From assembly GCA_017448965.1 (NCBI GenBank), contig JAFSKK010000019.1:1-48300 (forward strand): 48,300 bases of DNA, read 5' to 3'. Positions 22,037 to 30,301 of the stretch are shown here, piece by piece. This DNA is from Bacteroidaceae bacterium (GTDB lineage: Bacteria; Bacteroidota; Bacteroidia; Bacteroidales; Bacteroidaceae). Position 1 is the first letter of the stretch; the number at the start of each line of letters is the position of its first letter. The notes below the pieces were generated by a model that saw only the letters and a program-made list of their open reading frames with translations, searched no databases and was not told where the DNA came from. The position numbers and the translations under genes are program-made.

Positions 22037-23806
22037 ATGTTGTACGTCCTCAAAGCAGCCATCACGTTGGCACTCCTATACAGCTGTTTTTTTCTCTTTC
22101 TGAGCAAAGAAACATTCCACAGGTTCAACCGCATCATGCTGGTGGGCATCATGATCGTGTCGCTCGTCATGCCGCTGTTCCACTTCACCACCTCCCACCC
22201 CACGGCGCTGAACGAAGAGGTGTATCTGGTACAGACCTACATAGAGGAAGACACCACGCCCATCATCGTCACAGCACAGCACACACAAAGCTTCACGTGG
22301 ATGCAAGCACTCACGTGGCTCTATCTGGCAGGAGTGGCCATCATGCTCATCCTCACATTGGTGCAAGCATTCTCCCTCATCCGTTTCATGCGTGGAGGAG
22401 TCCGCCACACCGACTCACAAGGCAACACCGTCATCCTGCACAACAGCGACGTACCCCCATTCAGCATCTTCCGCTACATCGTCATGAGTGTGAAGGACTA
22501 CGAAACAAGCCGTCCCTACATCCTCACCCACGAACAGGAGCACATCCGTCTGGGGCACACCTACGACCTCCTGCTGCTCCAATGTGTAAAAACCCTCCAG
22601 TGGTTCAACCCCTTCATCTGGTTCCTCAGCCGCGACCTCAAAGCCGTGCACGAATATGAGGCAGACCAGGCAGTCATCAACCAAGGCATCGATGCAAAAT
22701 CATATCAACAACTTCTCGTGATAAAGGTAGTCGGCGACCGTCTGCAGCCTTTCACCAACAATCTGAATCACGGCTCACTCAAAAAACGTATCGTTATGAT
22801 GTACCAGAAACCCTCCAACCGATGGCTCATGCTCAAAGCACTTTGCGCCATCCCCGTGGCGGCATTGACCATCAATACCTTCGCCACCCCCATTGAGACC
22901 GACCCCATGGAAGATATGGTGAAAACCTTAGAGACAAAGGCTGTGCCTACCTTCAACAAGTCTGAAACTCCCGCCGCTATTGTGACGGAAGAAGCCCCTG
23001 CGCCTGTTGTCACAGAGCAAACTTTGCAAGATGATGATGAACCCCTCATCGTGATTAATGGTCACGAAGTGAAAATCCCTACCGACATCAAGACTATAGA
23101 CAATGCAAGCATCGCCAAACTCCTCAACCTCAATGAGGATGACATCGAGTCCATCACCGTCCTCAAAGACGGAGCCGCCACCGCAATCTATGGCGACAAG
23201 GGAAAGAATGGCGTTATCGAAATCAAACTGAAAGAGGCGAATCAGATTTCCTTCGAAACTATCATTGACAGACTGCCTGGTGCAGAGAAGCATGAGGACG
23301 GCAGCATCACCATCAATGGGAGAACTGTGCAGAAGATAACCATAGAAGGTCAAGAAGTCTATAACGCCAACGAAGAACCCGACGAAGTCTTTGAAGTCTG
23401 CGAAGACCTCGCTAAATACCCAGGAGGTCAAGGAGCCATGATGGAATTCTTCGTCCGCAACCTTCGCTATCCCAAAGAAGCGCATAAGAATGGCATCCAG
23501 ACGCGCGTCATCCTACAGTTCATCGTAGAGAAAGACGGCTCACTCAGCAACTTCAAGGTGCTCGAAAACAAACCAACAGGAGCGAACGGCAGCACCCTTG
23601 ACGACATGATAACCGTTACAGCCGCCAAAATCAAAGATGGCATCGAAGTCGATGCCACACCAGAGGAACTACTTGCATGCAAAAAACTCCTCGAAAACGA
23701 AGCTATCCGCGTGGTGAAACTCATGCCCAAATGGGAACCCGCCAAACAAAGAGGCCATGTGGTCAGGATGAGGTACACCATTCCCGTCACCTTCCGCCTC
23801 CAATAG
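22037..23806 (+). CDS. M56 metallopeptidase-plug-TonB fusion protein
   Basis: A 589-residue BlaR1-like protein. Membrane helices lie near 5-22, 33-50, 93-116 and 262-285. The zinc motif HEQEH (165-169) sits in THEQEHIRLGH and is followed by HEYEAD. The periplasmic part holds two plug-like pieces: DDIESITVLKDGAATAIYGD (368-387), as in SusC-type receptors, and LPGAEKHEDGSITINGRTVQ (413-432), close to the plug of the barrel protein at 2106-5039. A TonB C-terminal-like domain follows (about 467-589: FFVRNLRYPKEA and TIPVTFRLQ). It pairs with the repressor 4 nt upstream. It probably senses an envelope state and inactivates BlaI. Confidence 0.88.
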   Translation: MLYVLKAAITLALLYSCFFLFLSKETFHRFNRIMLVGIMIVSLVMPLFHFTTSHPTALNEEVYLVQTYIEEDTTPIIVTAQHTQSFTWMQALTWLYLAGVAIMLILTLVQAFSLIRFMRGGVRHTDSQGNTVILHNSDVPPFSIFRYIVMSVKDYETSRPYILTHEQEHIRLGHTYDLLLLQCVKTLQWFNPFIWFLSRDLKAVHEYEADQAVINQGIDAKSYQQLLVIKVVGDRLQPFTNNLNHGSLKKRIVMMYQKPSNRWLMLKALCAIPVAALTINTFATPIETDPMEDMVKTLETKAVPTFNKSETPAAIVTEEAPAPVVTEQTLQDDDEPLIVINGHEVKIPTDIKTIDNASIAKLLNLNEDDIESITVLKDGAATAIYGDKGKNGVIEIKLKEANQISFETIIDRLPGAEKHEDGSITINGRTVQKITIEGQEVYNANEEPDEVFEVCEDLAKYPGGQGAMMEFFVRNLRYPKEAHKNGIQTRVILQFIVEKDGSLSNFKVLENKPTGANGSTLDDMITVTAAKIKDGIEVDATPEELLACKKLLENEAIRVVKLMPKWEPAKQRGHVVRMRYTIPVTFRLQ

Positions 23807-24038: not shown

Positions 24039-24506
24039 TTACAAAACGCTCACCACTTCCTCCAAGTATTTCTTGTCCACCTCGTCGAAAGTAGCGAGGT
24101 CCTTGCTGTCGATGTCAAGCACAGCTATCACCTCCCCATCTCTCTGGACGGGCACTACAATTTCGCTGCTACTGAGGCTGGAGCAAGCAATGTGGCCGGG
24201 AAAGGCGTCCACATCGGGCACGATGACGGTAGCGGCGCGCTCCCATGCTGTGCCACACACGCCCTTGCCTTTCTTGATGCGAGTGCATGCCAACGGACCC
24301 TGGAATGGCCCCAGCACCAGCTCTCCGTCTAACACCCTATAAAATCCTGTCCACCAGAACCCAAACGTCTCGTGCAGCATGCTGGCCACATTCGCCATGT
24401 TCGCAATCATGTCTGTCTCGCCTTCCACCACCGCACGAATCTGGGGCAGCAGTTGCAGATACTTTTCTTCCTTCGAACCACCTATTACTTTCAGTTCTTC
24501 AGCCAT
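24039..24506 (-). CDS. msrC: Free methionine-(R)-sulfoxide reductase
   Basis: A GAF-domain enzyme that reduces free methionine-R-sulfoxide, with thioredoxin as usual reductant. The three conserved cysteines are Cys74 (PLACTRIKKG), Cys84 (KGVCGTAW) and Cys108 (GHIACSS), with the same 10- and 24-residue spacing as in the E. coli enzyme. ETFGFWWTGFYRV and GELVLGPFQGP are also typical. The family start MAEELKVIGG (24506) is preferred; Met at 24527 is possible. Longer starts would precede the promoter box at 24545-24552. It is a single gene. Confidence 0.93.
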   Translation of the reverse strand: MAEELKVIGGSKEEKYLQLLPQIRAVVEGETDMIANMANVASMLHETFGFWWTGFYRVLDGELVLGPFQGPLACTRIKKGKGVCGTAWERAATVIVPDVDAFPGHIACSSLSSSEIVVPVQRDGEVIAVLDIDSKDLATFDEVDKKYLEEVVSVL

Positions 24507-24544
24507 AACCTTTCCATTTTTGAACATAATCCTTAATTCCTCCA

Positions 24545-24552
24545 CAAAGATA
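24545..24552 (-). promoter_or_regulatory. -7 box for methionine sulfoxide reductase
   Basis: Minus strand TATCTTTG, 39 nt before the chosen start. Confidence 0.6.
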
Positions 24553-24645
24553 AAGTAAAAAGCATGAATTATCCTCAAAAAAAGACAAGAAGAATGGGAA
24601 AAGGGGCACAAGAAGGGCTACTTGTGAAAAAAAGTGCCCAAAAAG

Positions 24646-24676
24646 TTGGCATTAAAGATTTTTTAACGTACATTTG
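24646..24676 (+). promoter_or_regulatory. Promoter of surface lipoprotein cluster
   Basis: TTG (24646-24648), 20-nt spacer, TACATTTG (24669-24676). It is the only clear promoter ahead of the genes from 24722 to 30301. Confidence 0.75.
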
Positions 24677-24721
24677 CCGTCAAATCAATTATTAACATTA
24701 ACCACTTAAAACTGAAAACTT

Positions 24722-25273
24722 ATGAAAACTAAAAAATTCTTTCTTGCACTGGCCACTTTGATGGTGTGTGCAGCGAGTGCTTTCATCTCATGCAGTAGCG
24801 ACGATGACAACAACAATAGCAGCAAAGAGGCGGGCGACAAGGCTGTGGCTTCGCTGAAGGCTTTGCTTCTCGACGATGAGGGCAACCCCGTGTTTGGCGA
24901 GACGAACGAACAGGGGCTTTACCAGATTGGGTTCGAGAATCAGAATGATGCGACGAAACAGGTGGGCAAGTACGTGAACAATGCCGGGTATGCTGGCGAC
25001 GCCACCATCTATCCGTTGCCCGACGAACGAGGCACGGTGCGTGTGGAAAAAGGCGCTAAGGATGGTATCTATTATCAGGTGAAGTTTGCCGTGAAGGACA
25101 TTCCACAAATGACACTGGAAGTGGTGGATGCCAACTACATGGAGAACGAGAATGCCTTGAAGACGCTCACACGTTACCAGTGCAATAACTGCAATCTCAT
25201 ATTCAAACTGCCTAACATGGCGGCGAAGAAGTGCACCTCATGCAGCAGTACGAACATCGAAAAGGCGAATTGA
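24722..25273 (+). CDS. Lipoprotein with C-terminal zinc-ribbon motif
   Basis: A 183-residue lipoprotein: lipobox FISC with Cys24, followed by SSDDD, which resembles the Bacteroidetes surface-export signal. The central part is beta-rich (GLYQIGFENQNDATKQVGKY, VRVEKGAKDGIYYQVKFAV). Four cysteines near the end, Cys154-x2-Cys157 and Cys171-x2-Cys174, look like a rubredoxin/zinc-ribbon knuckle, odd for an exported protein. First gene of a four-gene cluster, 15 nt before the DUF4421 gene. Function is unknown; it may bind metal or respond to redox state. Confidence 0.85.
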   Translation: MKTKKFFLALATLMVCAASAFISCSSDDDNNNSSKEAGDKAVASLKALLLDDEGNPVFGETNEQGLYQIGFENQNDATKQVGKYVNNAGYAGDATIYPLPDERGTVRVEKGAKDGIYYQVKFAVKDIPQMTLEVVDANYMENENALKTLTRYQCNNCNLIFKLPNMAAKKCTSCSSTNIEKAN

Positions 25274-25288
25274 CAACCTGAAGACAGC

Positions 25289-26416
25289 ATGAAAAGAGCA
25301 CTCTTTTACAGTTGCCTGATGCTGATGCCTCTGGCAGGGCATGCCCAGTTGTGGGAAAAGGCAAGAGCTTTTGTGGATTCCCACTCGAAGAAGGCCAATG
25401 TGGACACGCTCTACATCGAGACACCGAAGGAGCCGTGGCGCATCAGCATGGACAGTTATCTGAGCCAGTCGGATTTGCTGATGAAATCGACGGTGGAGGA
25501 TAATGCGATGTTCTCTGACGTGGAGGGCAACCTGGAATGTCATCCACGCATCCGCACCGATGTGTCATCGTCGGTAGGTGTGCGCGTGGGATACAAGGGT
25601 CTTGCGGTACACTATGCACACAACATCACAGGCGACAAGGGCAGAGACCTGTCGGTGAGCGGTTCGGGCACATGGTATTGTGCCCACGTGCGTCTGCATG
25701 AGTTTAAGACAAAGGAGCCACAAGTGCGCTACGAGGGGAAGTTATACCTCGACGACGATGCAGCCCCCGAATGGATGAGTTTCACCAACAAGTGGATGCT
25801 CTCCTCGCCCATCAAGGCAAAGACGGTGGTGGCAGACGGCTATTACATCTTCAACAAACGGCGTTTCTCCTACAAGGCGGCCTATCGGCAGAGTGTCATT
25901 CAGCGACGCTCGGCTGGTTCGTGGCTGGCAGGAGCCATGTTCTACTACTCGGACTTCCGTTATGACAACAATGCCAATGCTGAACTGCTGCTGTACATGA
26001 ACGACGTGGGACGCATCAAGCAGTGGCAAGCAAATGTGGGTGCTGGATATGGCTACAACTATGTGCCCGCAAAGGGATGGCTCATCAGCGCAATGGCGAT
26101 GCCGATGGTGACGGTGTTTAACCGCGTGAAGAGTTATCATTTTGATTCTAATCTTCGCCAATTGGCGCTCGATGAGGAAGAGCACGATATCGACGAACTG
26201 CAACCGCAGGATTACCGCATCTCAAGCATGGGTTCGGAAAGCATGAACAGCCGCATCTCGCTGAACTTCAACGCCCGGCTGTCCATCACCTACAACTGGA
26301 ACCGCTACTTCGTAAACCTGAACGGACAGTTCTACAACTTCAACTATCGGCATCATGGAAACCGAGGCCGACTGAACGACTGGTATGCAAATGCGTCGAT
26401 AGGCGTCAGGCTCTAA
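25289..26416 (+). CDS. DUF4421 outer-membrane protein
   Basis: A 375-residue exported protein (signal peptide MKRALFYSCLMLMPLAGHAQ) with the DUF4421 opening VDTLYIETPKEPWRISMDSY and alternating aromatic strands expected for a small beta-barrel (LAGAMFYYSDFRY, NRYFVNLNGQFYNFNYRHHG). The end, ANASIGVRL, fits a C-terminal barrel strand, though the last residue is Leu rather than Phe. It lies between two lipoprotein genes. The family has no established function; here it could be the membrane component of a surface complex. Confidence 0.83.
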   Translation: MKRALFYSCLMLMPLAGHAQLWEKARAFVDSHSKKANVDTLYIETPKEPWRISMDSYLSQSDLLMKSTVEDNAMFSDVEGNLECHPRIRTDVSSSVGVRVGYKGLAVHYAHNITGDKGRDLSVSGSGTWYCAHVRLHEFKTKEPQVRYEGKLYLDDDAAPEWMSFTNKWMLSSPIKAKTVVADGYYIFNKRRFSYKAAYRQSVIQRRSAGSWLAGAMFYYSDFRYDNNANAELLLYMNDVGRIKQWQANVGAGYGYNYVPAKGWLISAMAMPMVTVFNRVKSYHFDSNLRQLALDEEEHDIDELQPQDYRISSMGSESMNSRISLNFNARLSITYNWNRYFVNLNGQFYNFNYRHHGNRGRLNDWYANASIGVRL

Positions 26417-26442
26417 GAGTTAGGAGTTAGAAGTTATGAGTT
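26416..26442 (+). repeat. Short GAGTTAG-type tandem repeat
   Basis: Three or four GAGTTA-containing units of 7-9 nt fill the 19-nt gap and run into the start codon of the next lipoprotein gene. There is no opposing arm. Confidence 0.6.
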
Positions 26443-27506
26443 GCTATTGGAAGTCTCTTCACTTTTGTCTTCTCGCCGTCATGACCACGCTGCTGGGCTT
26501 TAGCCTAACTGCCTGCAACAGCGACGACGAGCAGACTTTGCCTTCCCCCACTGTATTGCCTGAGGTGACAGTGGTGTTCTCGCTCGATGGTTTGGGCGAC
26601 GGGAGTTACAACGACCAGATTCTGCGCGGCATCAAACTGATGGAGAATGAAAACAGCCAGAAGATGCACATCCGCTTCCTCACGCTTTCGAGCATGGAGG
26701 AGGTGGAGGCTTTTTGTCGGTCGTGGTGGGAGAATATTGACGAACCTGCCGACGGACAAGACATTGCGCCAAGACGACTGCTGGTACTGGCCTCGTCTGA
26801 CTATGTGGATATGGCCCGTCAAGTGTTTGCAGGAGCGGAGATGAACATCAACCGCTGTGTGCTGGCATTTGAAGCGGAGGACAGCGGTGACGAGACAGAG
26901 CAGATTCGCACGTTCAACATCAACATGTATGGTGTCTCGTGGCTGGCTGGCCGCACGGCAAAGGAAATGGGATGCAAGAGTCCGCTCTTGTTGCTCGGCA
27001 ACAGTCAAAACACGACCACTTATGATGCAAGAGACGGCTTTGTGGATGGTTATGGACAGAAGGAGGACGGCTCTCTGGCCGATATAGGTGCGATAGCAGA
27101 TAACTATAGGGGGTATGGAATGCCAACGGAACTGTACCGCATGATGTATGACTATGACGGCAAGTATGATTTCATCTATGCTGTGGCAGGTGGTTCGAAC
27201 ATGGGTGCCTACCGCTATCTGCGCGAGCATCCCGATTGCGGCATCTACACGGCAGGCATGGATGTGGATCAGAGTCCCTACTCCACTTTGATTGTAGGAT
27301 CAATGATGAAGCGCATTGACTTGGTACTTTATGACCATCTGACGAATTGGTATCAGCAGAAAGACTTGCCTCGCTATCAGCACTACGGGCTGGAGAGTGG
27401 CTATATAGATTGGCAAATAGCTGACCGCTACGGCTTCTTGAAAGCAAGCGTGGAGGCGAATCGGCAAGAGGCCATCAGGAAGGAGAAGGAATATGAAGCG
27501 AAATAA
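26436..27506 (+). CDS. BMP-family periplasmic-binding lipoprotein
   Basis: A 356-residue lipoprotein (lipobox LTAC, Cys27, followed by NSDDE). The mature part resembles the BMP/Med (PnrA-like) type 1 periplasmic-binding family: VVFSLDGLGDGSYNDQILRG at the start, GAYRYLREHPDCGIYTAGMD and VGSMMKRIDLVLYDHLTNW later. Such proteins usually bind nucleosides for ABC import, but no permease or ATPase gene is adjacent, and the acidic export-like signal suggests the cell surface. It overlaps the C13 peptidase gene by 14 nt. Ligand binding for sensing is the better guess. Confidence 0.83.
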   Translation: MSCYWKSLHFCLLAVMTTLLGFSLTACNSDDEQTLPSPTVLPEVTVVFSLDGLGDGSYNDQILRGIKLMENENSQKMHIRFLTLSSMEEVEAFCRSWWENIDEPADGQDIAPRRLLVLASSDYVDMARQVFAGAEMNINRCVLAFEAEDSGDETEQIRTFNINMYGVSWLAGRTAKEMGCKSPLLLLGNSQNTTTYDARDGFVDGYGQKEDGSLADIGAIADNYRGYGMPTELYRMMYDYDGKYDFIYAVAGGSNMGAYRYLREHPDCGIYTAGMDVDQSPYSTLIVGSMMKRIDLVLYDHLTNWYQQKDLPRYQHYGLESGYIDWQIADRYGFLKASVEANRQEAIRKEKEYEAK

Positions 27507-29538
27507 ATGGTGGGTGGCGTTGTGCTTGCTGGTGCTGATGGCTTGCAGCGACAACAACGACACCTCTTCAGAAAAACATATCGACTGGCAAGTACGAAAA
27601 GTGGCCGTTGTGCTGCCCATGAGGTATGGACAGCAGCAACACTGGGAACAGACAATTGGAATGGCGGCCGACGGATTGCATGAGATTCAGAAACAGAATA
27701 TCCTGAACACACCCGACGGGTCGGACACTCAACGGGTGAAGCTGGAGTTTGAGTGGTTTGACGAGGAAAAGGAAGACCTGGAGCAGTTAGGTGAGGAACT
27801 GGCTAACCGCGACGACATCGTGGCTGTGATTGGCGGCAAGTTCAGTGCCGACGCTGCCATCCTCGCAGCCCACCTCTGCCGTGCTCACAAACCTCTTTTC
27901 ACCATCGCCACATCTGAAGAACTGGTGCGAGCATACGCTTCGACGGGCTCTCTCTGGGCTATGGTGGAGAGTGACATCACACAATGTGAGATTCTGCTGA
28001 GCCGCGCACTCTACTATGGAGCCAAGACTGTGTCTCTGCTGGCCAACGGCGAAACACTGTATGGCAAGACTTTCGTGGATTGGATTGGTTTTCAAGCAGA
28101 AGAGTTGGGATTGGAAGTGAAGAGCATTCACGATTTCCGCAACGAGACGTTGGCAGAAGAAAGCCGAAAGGCTGCCGAAGAGGATGCCGATGTGGTCATC
28201 TGTGTGTCGAAAGAAGTGGCCACCATCGAATCAGCATTCCAACAGGCAGGCAGCCATTCGCGCCGTCTCTACAGCGACACCGCACATGGAGTGGATGTCA
28301 TCGAGATGTTTGGCGAGAAGGCAGAGGGCATCGAGGGAGTCACTTTCGGCGCTTCACCCGAAACGGGCTTCGACATCCTTTACGAAATCAAATTTGGTGT
28401 GCAACCTACACATAGTGCCGCACAGATTTATGATGCTGTCATCATGCTGGGATGGGCACTCATCAACCAAGTCACAACGCCTAAAGAGGCCACCTTGAAT
28501 GACTATCTGAAAGAAGTGGCCAATGCACACATAGCTGGTGCCTGTGGACCCATCGAGTTTGACCGCATGGTGTACACCACCGTGCTCTCCACCACCTACT
28601 ACCATTACATGCTCTACCAAGGACGTTACATCATCCTCGACTACATCTCTTCTACGGGTTCGCACCGCTCAGATGCCACGCTGGGTGCATGGAACTGGAA
28701 AGCGGAACGGATGCAGGAGTTCAGCGACGACGACAATCCTAACATCTCATACCCTGCTCTTGACCAGAAATGGGCCTTGCTTGTGGCTGGCAGCAGCGGA
28801 TGGAGCAACTATCGCCATCAGGCTGATGTGCTGCAGATTTACCAGATTCTGCGTCAGCAAGGCTACGACGACGACCACATCGTACTCATCATGGAGGACG
28901 ACATTGCCTACAACGCGAACAATCCCCATCAGGGTGTAGTGCAAGTGAGACCGAATGGGGCCAACATGTATCACGATGTTGTGGTTGACTACCACACCAG
29001 TCAATTGAAACCTGAAGATATCAAGCACATCCTCTGCGGCGAACAGAGCGAACGACTGCCGAAGGTCATTCATGCTGATAAGGACGACAATGTGCTCATG
29101 TTCTGGAGCGGACACGGAGAGCCTGGACAAATGGTGTGGCTCGACCAATCAAGCGGCTTCACGACGCAACTGGCCAAAGAAACCTTCGAAGCCATGCATG
29201 CAGGAGAGAAATACCGCAAATTCCTCTGTTTCACGGAGACTTGCTATTCAGGCAGCGTGATGAAGGCCGCTGAGAACATCCCCGGCATTCTCGCGTTCAC
29301 CGCCGCCAGCCCGACAGAAACTTCGAAGGCAGACATCTACAACACCGACCTCCACGTCTGGATGTCGAACCGATTCACAGCCACCTTGCAGGACTGCATT
29401 CTCAACTCGCCAGACATCCCTCTGCGTGACCTCTACTACAAGCTCTTCATCAACACCGTCGGAAGCCACGTGATGACTTATAATGTGGCAAACTACGGCA
29501 ACATCTACCATGAATCGATGAAGGAATTCCTCAAATAG
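27493..29538 (+). CDS. Binding domain-legumain-like C13 peptidase lipoprotein
   Basis: A 681-residue lipoprotein (lipobox LMAC, Cys18, then SDNND). Residues about 35-375 look like a type 1 periplasmic-binding domain (VAVIGGKFSADAAILAAHLC, THSAAQIYDAVIMLGWALIN). Residues about 425-681 are a C13 (legumain/GPI8-like) cysteine peptidase: LLVAGSSGWSNYRHQAD with Asn439 and Arg441, EDDIAYNANNPHQGVV, SGHG with catalytic His541, and ETCYSGS with Glu582 and catalytic Cys584. Human legumain has the same pattern (Asn42/Arg44, His148, Glu187/Cys189), so cleavage after Asn or Asp is expected. It overlaps the BMP gene. The pairing of a binding domain with C13 is unusual. Confidence 0.88.
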   Translation: MKRNKWWVALCLLVLMACSDNNDTSSEKHIDWQVRKVAVVLPMRYGQQQHWEQTIGMAADGLHEIQKQNILNTPDGSDTQRVKLEFEWFDEEKEDLEQLGEELANRDDIVAVIGGKFSADAAILAAHLCRAHKPLFTIATSEELVRAYASTGSLWAMVESDITQCEILLSRALYYGAKTVSLLANGETLYGKTFVDWIGFQAEELGLEVKSIHDFRNETLAEESRKAAEEDADVVICVSKEVATIESAFQQAGSHSRRLYSDTAHGVDVIEMFGEKAEGIEGVTFGASPETGFDILYEIKFGVQPTHSAAQIYDAVIMLGWALINQVTTPKEATLNDYLKEVANAHIAGACGPIEFDRMVYTTVLSTTYYHYMLYQGRYIILDYISSTGSHRSDATLGAWNWKAERMQEFSDDDNPNISYPALDQKWALLVAGSSGWSNYRHQADVLQIYQILRQQGYDDDHIVLIMEDDIAYNANNPHQGVVQVRPNGANMYHDVVVDYHTSQLKPEDIKHILCGEQSERLPKVIHADKDDNVLMFWSGHGEPGQMVWLDQSSGFTTQLAKETFEAMHAGEKYRKFLCFTETCYSGSVMKAAENIPGILAFTAASPTETSKADIYNTDLHVWMSNRFTATLQDCILNSPDIPLRDLYYKLFINTVGSHVMTYNVANYGNIYHESMKEFLK

Positions 29539-29545
29539 CCCCATC

Positions 29546-30301
29546 ATGACACTTGACATACTGATATGCACGATTGACGAAGGCATCAAGAGAGTGCCAA
29601 AGGTATTGATGCCGCCACAAAGCAATGTCAAGTATGTGGTGTCGATGCAATGGACAAGTGAGGACATGAAGAAGCATGCGCCTGCTGTGCTGAAGGAGCG
29701 CGAGGATGTGATGCTGACGTTCTTGGAAGGAAAAGGACTGAGCCGAAACAGGAATCATGCGTTGGAAAAGGCGACGGGAGATGTAGTGCTGATAGCAGAT
29801 GATGACTGCCGATACACAGAGGAACTGATTGGGCATGTGTTTGATGCGTACAACGAGCATCCAGAGGCTGATGTGATTCATTTTCAAGCATTAGACTTAG
29901 AGGGGGAACCGTTGCACCCCTACCCTGTTCCTTATGTGAGTTCGGTGGAGATGACGTTCAGGAGGAAAGTTACAACGAGATTTGACGAGCGGTTTGGTTT
30001 GGGAAGTGAACGTTTTTGTGCTGGTGAGGAGGATGTATGGATGAAGGACACAAAAGAGACTGGGTATCACATTCTCTACGTGGATAAGCCCATCGTGATG
30101 ACTCCCAAAGAAACCACGGGAAAGAACTTTCTGAAGAACAAACAGATGCAAGTAACGAAAGGTGCCGTATTCAAGTATGTGTATGGTACAGTCGGTGCTG
30201 CATGGAGAACGCTGAAAGAGGCAGGATGGTGGTTGGTGCACAAAGGAGCCAACCCGCTACCTATATTATATAATATGTCAAAGGGAATGGTAGAAGTCTA
30301 A
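29546..30301 (+). CDS. Glycosyltransferase family 2 protein
   Basis: A 251-residue GT-A glycosyltransferase. GKGLSRNRNHALEKATGDVV and the metal-binding DDD (about residues 85-87, in LIADDDCRYTEE) are typical of family 2; GEEDVWMKDTKETGY carries a probable acceptor-side catalytic acid. It has no signal peptide and acts in the cytoplasm. It starts 7 nt after the C13 gene, so it may be cotranscribed. Its last 24 nt overlap the end of the convergent glycosyltransferase gene. Donor and acceptor are unknown. Confidence 0.87.
   Translation: MTLDILICTIDEGIKRVPKVLMPPQSNVKYVVSMQWTSEDMKKHAPAVLKEREDVMLTFLEGKGLSRNRNHALEKATGDVVLIADDDCRYTEELIGHVFDAYNEHPEADVIHFQALDLEGEPLHPYPVPYVSSVEMTFRRKVTTRFDERFGLGSERFCAGEEDVWMKDTKETGYHILYVDKPIVMTPKETTGKNFLKNKQMQVTKGAVFKYVYGTVGAAWRTLKEAGWWLVHKGANPLPILYNMSKGMVEV

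Follow-up and report, generated by a model that had tools for sequence, protein, structure and literature searches.

We describe a gene cassette of gut and rumen Bacteroidales, apparently without an earlier description, whose sequence suggests the union of an amino-acid-receptor-like domain with a legumain-type protease and, as a whole, a receptor that may control the cutting of proteins outside the cell. The cassette lies in a 48,300-nt stretch (the window) of contig JAFSKK010000019.1 from a Bacteroidaceae bacterium (assembly GCA_017448965.1, genome G000 in our set, 85.6% complete). Its four genes encode a lipoprotein (gene 1), a DUF4421 protein (gene 2), a BMP-type binding lipoprotein (gene 3) and a lipoprotein in which a Venus-flytrap domain is fused to a C13 peptidase (gene 4). 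An initial annotation had recognised these genes and missed the link to MACPF proteins set out below. That link, a conserved amino-acid motif and the fact that both binding proteins seem to be orphans make the find more interesting than the annotation stated. Among the matches listed in a full-text literature search, judged by title and start of abstract and with subscription papers and preprints outside its scope, no paper dealt with a fusion of a binding protein to a C13 peptidase in bacteria or with a tie of such a peptidase to MACPF; the matches listed for DUF4421 likewise held no paper with that word. The features of the region are:

27493..29538, plus strand: gene 4, lipoprotein with a Venus-flytrap domain fused to a C13 peptidase (Pfam and fold)
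27583..28650, plus strand: LivK/mGluR-type flytrap domain, gene 4 residues 31-386, with motif S118, T140, D161, Y190, D262 (profile, structure model)
28759..29535, plus strand: legumain-fold C13 peptidase, gene 4 residues 423-681, with N439, R441, H541, E582, C584 (Pfam, PDB match, structure model)
26436..27506, plus strand: gene 3, putative orphan PnrA/BMP-type binding lipoprotein (Pfam PF02608; PDB profile match to the PnrA family)
24722..25273, plus strand: gene 1, lipoprotein with a "G1/c3" family domain and a C-terminal four-cysteine ribbon (profile match to the BMP-adjacent lipoprotein of other loci)
25289..26416, plus strand: gene 2, accessory DUF4421 protein and putative outer-membrane barrel, with a signal peptide seen by eye (Pfam PF14391, E = 9e-41)
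24646..24674, plus strand: promoter-like site 47 bp 5' of gene 1 (TTGGCA-17-TACATT, then TG), its position being the sole support

An ORF check placed the four genes where the initial annotation had them: 15 bp separate genes 1 and 2, 19 bp separate genes 2 and 3, and genes 3 and 4 overlap by 14 bp. The fusion in gene 4 was borne out by Pfam (Peptidase_C13, E = 9e-52, 176.6 bits against a cut-off of 22.8; Peripla_BP_6, E = 2.7e-11) and by structure prediction, which returned a confident two-domain fold (pLDDT 87.8) with a LivK/mGluR-type flytrap and a legumain-fold C13 peptidase. Human legumain was the top PDB sequence match to the peptidase (E = 1.9e-38), and the Pfam scan gave no match of gene 4 to the C11 peptidase family at E up to 1. 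The numbering proposed earlier for Asn439, Arg441, His541 and Cys584 is right (NYRHQAD begins at 439, SGHG at 539 and ETCYSG at 582). The accompanying claim of an active site as in eukaryotic legumain stands for the His/Cys dyad, which is intact, and falls in two places: Gly precedes the catalytic His where the human legumain chain has Asn, and Asn626 replaces Asp.

We compared gene 4 with its relatives. A one-genome-per-species scan found 420 encoding stretches, the best 80 of which were retained, and the locus comparisons use 96 loci, namely 109 retrieved (L031-L139) minus those sharing identical last 250 residues. The catalytic His and Cys were present in all 30 alignment rows and in 95 of the 96 loci, the remaining one being a gap in a split gene. 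At the positions of Arg, Glu and Asp that we take to form the S1 pocket of legumain, the 30 rows had Arg441 throughout, Glu582 in 27 with Asp in 3, and Asn (21) or Asp (9) at the legumain Asp position. The peptidase may cleave after Asn or Asp, with the proviso that the presumed S1-pocket Asp of legumain is Asn here. The match to the legumain catalytic domain extends to residue 677 of 681 and therefore leaves no room for a C-terminal prodomain, which in legumain keeps the enzyme latent. At L123:8989-11073 two successive ORFs, of 433 and 247 aa, make up the flytrap-C13 gene, a split possibly due to a frameshift or an assembly error. Another, weak C13-like match (E = 2.8e-5) stands elsewhere in the window's own genome, at G000:C42:22633-23067, within a frame of 258 aa.

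By profile, the closest solved relatives of the flytrap domain were LivK- and LivJ-type proteins, taste receptor T1R3 and metabotropic glutamate receptors. In mGlu1, Ser165, Thr188, Asp208, Tyr236 and Asp318 hold the alpha-amino acid, according to an excerpt of PMC2680970. We transferred these positions by hand via profile alignments, with the help of the mGlu1 sequence context and with the T1R3 alignment used at Thr (the mGluR8 alignment is off by one residue), and found all five kept in the window as Ser118, Thr140, Asp161, Tyr190 and Asp262. With Thr and Ser taken as interchangeable, Phe accepted at Tyr and Glu at the last Asp, 73 of the 96 loci had the complete motif, 22 an incomplete one and 1 a gap; the strict form STDYD occurred in 54. 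The five columns rank 9 to 47 in conservation among 351 flytrap columns, that is, well kept and not exceptional. The fused domain looks like an amino-acid receptor, and the conservation of its motif lends indirect support to a putative gating by ligand. Nine longer fusions (frames of 782-833 aa; L032, L034, L036, L037, L039, L056, L057, L058, L059) have lost parts of the motif and retained the peptidase dyad; Asn replaces Ser118 in seven of them, and an aromatic residue or Leu replaces Asp262 in all nine.

The assignment of gene 3 to the BMP type held, with a Pfam Bmp score barely above the cut-off (E = 4.9e-6, 26.2 against 24.1 bits); in addition, the BMP profile matches PnrA-family structures in the PDB and the family motifs are conserved. 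A BMP gene precedes the C13 gene in 92 of the 96 loci, 86 times as an adjacent ORF recognised by profiles built in this work and six times by tblastn; among the latter, about 0.5 kb separates the two genes at L113, and the L126 match is fragmentary, lying at the edge of a contig. Neither profiles nor tblastn found an upstream BMP gene at L037, L038 and L039, and L068 begins at a contig end. We also searched 25 C13-carrying genomes (the 26 family genomes matching gene 4 minus the fragment G157). Here Pfam Bmp gave eight matches in seven genomes, each at most 119 bp from a C13 gene, although this search was insensitive and missed the window's own BMP, which the protein scan detects. For BPD_transp_2 (PF02653), which we take to be the permease family serving LIV- and BMP-type importers, none of the 25 genomes had a match at E 0.001, and 12 of 14 control genomes were positive; the absence of an ABC permease noted in the initial annotation thus extends to the genome level for this family, other permease families not having been searched. 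Since no such permease was found in 25 of 25 genomes, both binding proteins look like orphans rather than importer components.

The loci are also linked to MACPF, that is perforin-like, proteins. With an operon taken as an unbroken same-strand run, 13 of the 96 operons hold one to three lipoproteins of a single MACPF group, and each of these 13 loci has at least one MACPF match. Among the 35 proteins of the group, 28 match Pfam MACPF and 14 match BACON, and the group consensus FGTHVV....LGG is one that we take to resemble the MACPF signature. At L050 and L054, where the operon rule broke, MACPF genes also lie near the C13 gene, outside the 13 operons. The 25 genomes had been picked solely for C13. 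Among them, 14 MACPF matches turned up in six genomes (13 passed the Pfam cut-off), each at a distance of 1.3-7.1 kb from a C13 gene; L050 and L054 are two of the six loci concerned. The random chance of six out of six MACPF clusters lying beside C13 is about 2e-13, a rough figure, the genomes being related. MACPF also occurs without C13: 14 of 201 family genomes have MACPF, and eight of these are not among the 26 C13 genomes.

Gene 1 connects the window with these operons. In other loci, among them MACPF operons, BMP has as its neighbour a lipoprotein that we named c3; profile-profile comparison by hhalign related it to gene 1 (98.4%, E = 4.5e-15). Iterated searches were made from both sides with signal peptides removed: gene-1 seeds gave 52 matches (31 of 40 c3 proteins, all 18 gene-1-like proteins and 3 others) and c3 seeds gave 56 (40 c3 and 16 of the 18 gene-1-like proteins). 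By these profile comparisons, the two appear to be one family. A first gene-1 profile that included signal peptides had swelled to 182 ORFs, which was blamed on shared signal peptides, and was dropped. The family is present within the operon in 40 of the 96 loci and anywhere in the locus in 46, and where MACPF genes occur it sits between them and BMP, being absent from three of the 13 MACPF operons (L055, L127, L128). A search of the 25 genomes with the family profile produced 55 matches with E up to 1e-4. The 19 strongest, with E up to 2e-7 (a limit chosen once the table had been seen), are each no more than 13.2 kb from a C13 gene. Among the other 36, 28 stop by model position 75 of 300, in the N-terminal stretch with the signal peptide; three of the remaining eight are on C13 contigs, and five (G141, G069, G014, G087) reach positions 85-105 on other contigs. 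The zinc ribbon once ascribed to gene 1 survives as a four-cysteine C-terminus, evident in its sequence and in most closer relatives, while Pfam Zn_ribbon_8 remains below threshold (14.8 against 34.4 bits). A known anti-phage defence was rejected, PADLOC having given a single weak match, DrmB (E = 0.0083), to this ribbon.

The order gene 1, DUF4421, BMP, fusion extends beyond this strain and was found in nine of nine genus genomes with a copy of at least 77% identity (window included). As a conserved system, however, the four-gene unit was ruled out by loci outside the genus, where what persists is BMP and the fusion, with or without a gene-1-family lipoprotein. The DUF4421 assignment of gene 2, a putative outer-membrane protein, was confirmed by Pfam, and the family returned 46 rows in 20 of the 25 genomes, 4 in the cassette, 2 near the C13 gene (G022, G010) and 40 elsewhere; because it is so widespread outside the cassette, the DUF4421 protein is accessory, a common family recruited in this genus. 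Gene 4 has a patchy spread, with matches, some partial, in 26 of 201 sampled family genomes and 18 of 41 genus genomes. The titles among the best 80 of 420 stretches were mostly of gut or rumen Bacteroidales; two Fibrobacter, two Treponema and one Oscillospiraceae metagenome-assembled genome were also present and may be misbinned. Named isolates with relatives include Bacteroides cellulosilyticus DSM 14838, Phocaeicola sartorii JCM 17136 and Paraprevotella xylaniphila YIT 11841, the last with the MACPF form of the locus on its contig.

Within the genus, the cassette changes place as a whole, its four genes being found together at one or the other of two sites. The cassette adjoins an M48 peptidase gene in G063, G081, G014, G202, G214 and G208, and stands at glycosyltransferase genes, a few genes from the M48 site, in the window, G218 and G205. 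The window's M48 site is closed, with 73 bp from M48 to the next gene. Both sites are closed in G127, which has no gene 4 match, and the M48 site is closed in G113 and G141, yet G141 has two distant copies elsewhere. The G+C content of the cassette is 52.3% against 48-49% in its flanks, and no repeat pair of at least 16 bases was found at its ends (24400-29800). A phage or plasmid origin was rejected: tblastn of gene 4 gave no match in phage and plasmid collections, and a viral-contig scan confirmed that there was no relative, no search having been aimed at integrases. Foldseek against viral proteins returned distant matches, many caspase-like and some binding-protein-like or unnamed.

The acidic stretches after the lipoprotein cysteines, pointed out in the initial annotation, are present in the three window lipoproteins (SSDDD, NSDDE, SDNND), and the trend holds in those relatives that a strict lipobox finder could score. 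At least two acidic residues at +2 to +6 were found in 24 of 29 C13, 25 of 27 BMP, 40 of 41 gene-1-family and 20 of 20 MACPF-group proteins, compared with 5 of 11 other ORFs, a small control. The finder recognised only 29 of 98 C13, 27 of 89 BMP, 41 of 61 gene-1-family and 20 of 35 MACPF-group proteins and 11 of 200 other ORFs, and missed the window's gene 4. The SDDDD consensus was proposed as an export signal for B. fragilis and is functional in Capnocytophaga, as stated in an excerpt of PMC5080379. The cassette lipoproteins are predicted to reside at the cell surface.

Computation showed the domain architecture and fold of the fusion, its catalytic residues and binding motif, the coupling of the genes, the lack of a detectable permease and the MACPF linkage. 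From these we tentatively favour a surface-lipoprotein receptor-protease, in which ligand binding controls or targets a peptidase that processes co-encoded surface lipoproteins. The amino-acid-type flytrap domain and the C13 cysteine peptidase with intact catalytic residues would form a sensor-protease core. The PnrA-type lipoprotein, whose gene overlaps the fusion gene, is probably translated together with it, and a gene-1-family lipoprotein would often complete the core. Neither binding protein seems to supply an importer; the ligands might be an amino acid or a derivative at the fused domain and possibly a nucleoside-like compound at the BMP partner. Bound ligand would control or target the peptidase, and the co-encoded surface lipoproteins would then be cut and so activated or released. 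Candidate clients include the MACPF pore-forming-type proteins in 13 of the 96 loci; in the window, which has no MACPF gene, gene 1 and also the DUF4421 protein would be the candidates, or else a protein encoded elsewhere. According to excerpts of two papers, the BcpT and CDCL toxins of Bacteroidales are activated by surface C11 lipoprotein proteases (PMC9308784, PMC11169675). A lipoprotein protease of family C13 whose gene accompanies those of MACPF lipoproteins fits the logic of these toxins, and the binding domain could make the cutting conditional.

Several observations weigh against this proposal. As drawn, 83 of the 96 operons are without the MACPF group (L050 and L054, with MACPF nearby, are among them), and the window's own genome, at its 85.6% completeness, gave no MACPF match. 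No cleavage site or substrate was identified. The incomplete and gapped motifs (22 loci and one) include five of the 13 MACPF loci (L035, L052, L055, L131, L137), and the interdomain linker of gene 4 is partly of low confidence (residues 398-403, pLDDT below 50), so that mechanical coupling of the domains is only putative. A bolder form of the receptor-protease proposal, which we consider rather unlikely, is a new receptor class, the Venus-flytrap protease: a small gut ligand, perhaps an amino acid from lysing neighbours, would turn on a surface legumain that, by cutting, activates perforin-like or other lipoprotein effectors encoded beside it. In that case the sensor-protease core would be constant and the effector slot interchangeable, occupied by MACPF genes, the 750-aa c6 protein of the family described below, M15 peptidase lipoproteins or the DUF4421 protein. 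Caspase-gasdermin systems are protease-triggered pore-forming systems, and the cassette would be a bacterial extracellular counterpart.

Part of the same evidence would suit an ungated surface protease, a doubtful alternative that we would give about the same credence as the new receptor class. The C13 peptidase would then constitutively shed or trim surface lipoproteins, much as fragipain frees many surface proteins of B. fragilis (excerpt of PMC9308784), and the flytrap would merely dock substrates or a partner. The missing latency prodomain, the uncertain linker and the branch that lost ligand-motif parts yet kept the peptidase dyad are in its favour; it accounts poorly for the conservation of the five ligand-contact positions and for a second binding lipoprotein that is nearly always co-encoded. 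Less likely, the cassette might serve immunity or counter-attack by destroying or blocking incoming toxins, with gene 1 as a putative BcdI-like immunity lipoprotein, a protease that cuts foreign pore-formers, and the window as an immunity-only version. The BfCDCL operon, which according to an excerpt of PMC11169675 also encodes an immunity lipoprotein and a porin, is a suggestive parallel, given the position of the gene-1 family between MACPF genes and BMP and the window's combination of a lipoprotein and DUF4421 without MACPF. Nevertheless, the gene-1 family is also present where no MACPF is seen and absent from the three MACPF operons named above.

Nutrient capture, in which dietary or host protein is cut at the surface and the binding proteins scavenge the freed amino acids and nucleosides, suits the rumen and gut hosts and the amino-acid-type motif. 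We regard it as quite unlikely in view of the lack of BPD_transp_2, presumably the permease for both binding-protein types, in all 25 genomes, and of the lack of SusC or SusD family members among the operon proteins scanned, which are part of the whole. Most improbable of these alternatives is a transpeptidase that, like GPI transamidase or plant ligases, would attach proteins to an acceptor at the surface rather than hydrolyse them; against it, a resemblance in fold cannot tell hydrolases from ligases.

Other neighbours accompany the core. The scanned members of c6, c10, c14 and further neighbour families gave no match above the curated cut-off. Family c6 is a conserved lipoprotein family (657-805 aa) at L043, L044, L045, L046, L048, L053, L101, L105 and L036; in eight of the nine loci it occupies the upstream slot held elsewhere by MACPF genes, and at L036 it comes after C13. 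As a MACPF protein c6 was rejected, with no Pfam match above cut-off and no PDB profile match; its structure model was poor (pLDDT 48.0). M15-peptidase lipoproteins stand 3' of the fusion gene in two C13 operons (L101:11582-12352, L119:13626-14369), and a C10 peptidase with BspA-type leucine-rich repeats (L079:203-2848) lies upstream of gene-1-like, BMP and C13 genes. The operon also includes HlyD/AcrB efflux genes at L114 and, at L099, an AraC-type regulator. The site before gene 1, which we take to resemble the Bacteroidales -7 element, belongs to no excess of promoter-like sites in the region (3 observed, 4.5 in shuffles). Ten other window proteins were scanned, and those with matches are ordinary chromosomal genes, e.g. 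LemA, alanyl-tRNA synthetase and Tex. At 22037-23806 the window also holds a BlaR1-type M56 peptidase gene that includes TonB_C and a TonB-plug-like segment, beside a BlaI-type repressor.

If the receptor-protease proposal is true, a dedicated protease with its own sensor-type domain stands beside perforin-like proteins, which would make the control of gut antagonism directly testable; with relatives in named isolates, experiments need not await the culture of rumen species. Compared with legumain, the asparaginyl endopeptidase of family C13, gene 4 has an added N-terminal flytrap, no C-terminal prodomain and a bacterial lipoprotein anchor, besides the Gly before the catalytic His and Asn626 in place of Asp. 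It resembles the Bacteroidales C11 proteases (fragipain and the doripains, with the toxins BFT, BcpT and CDCL) as a predicted surface lipoprotein cysteine protease of the same clan, with possible pore-forming lipoprotein clients. It differs from them in its C13 family, in its fused sensor-type domain and in sharing an operon with its presumed clients. With the MACPF toxins of the BSAP family, the related operons share MACPF lipoproteins, some with BACON domains, and one MACPF-group protein weakly matches NCBIfam BSAP5a_fam (E = 1.9e-5, 23.7 bits, far under the cut-off of 500). Unlike the BSAP genes, those found here mostly occur as two or three tandem copies with BMP and C13, and the window's genome has no match. 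Gene 3 is similar to PnrA/BMP nucleoside-binding lipoproteins in family profile and conserved motifs, and departs from them in its overlap with a protease gene and in the lack of a permease found for it. Finally, gene 4 shares its fold and five-residue amino-acid motif with Venus-flytrap receptors (class C GPCRs, Venus kinase receptors) and LIV-type binding proteins, but it has a lipoprotein anchor, no importer was found for it and its output domain is a protease. We know of no earlier receptor of the flytrap fold with such an output; thus, if the proposal is true, gene 4 would to our knowledge be the first.

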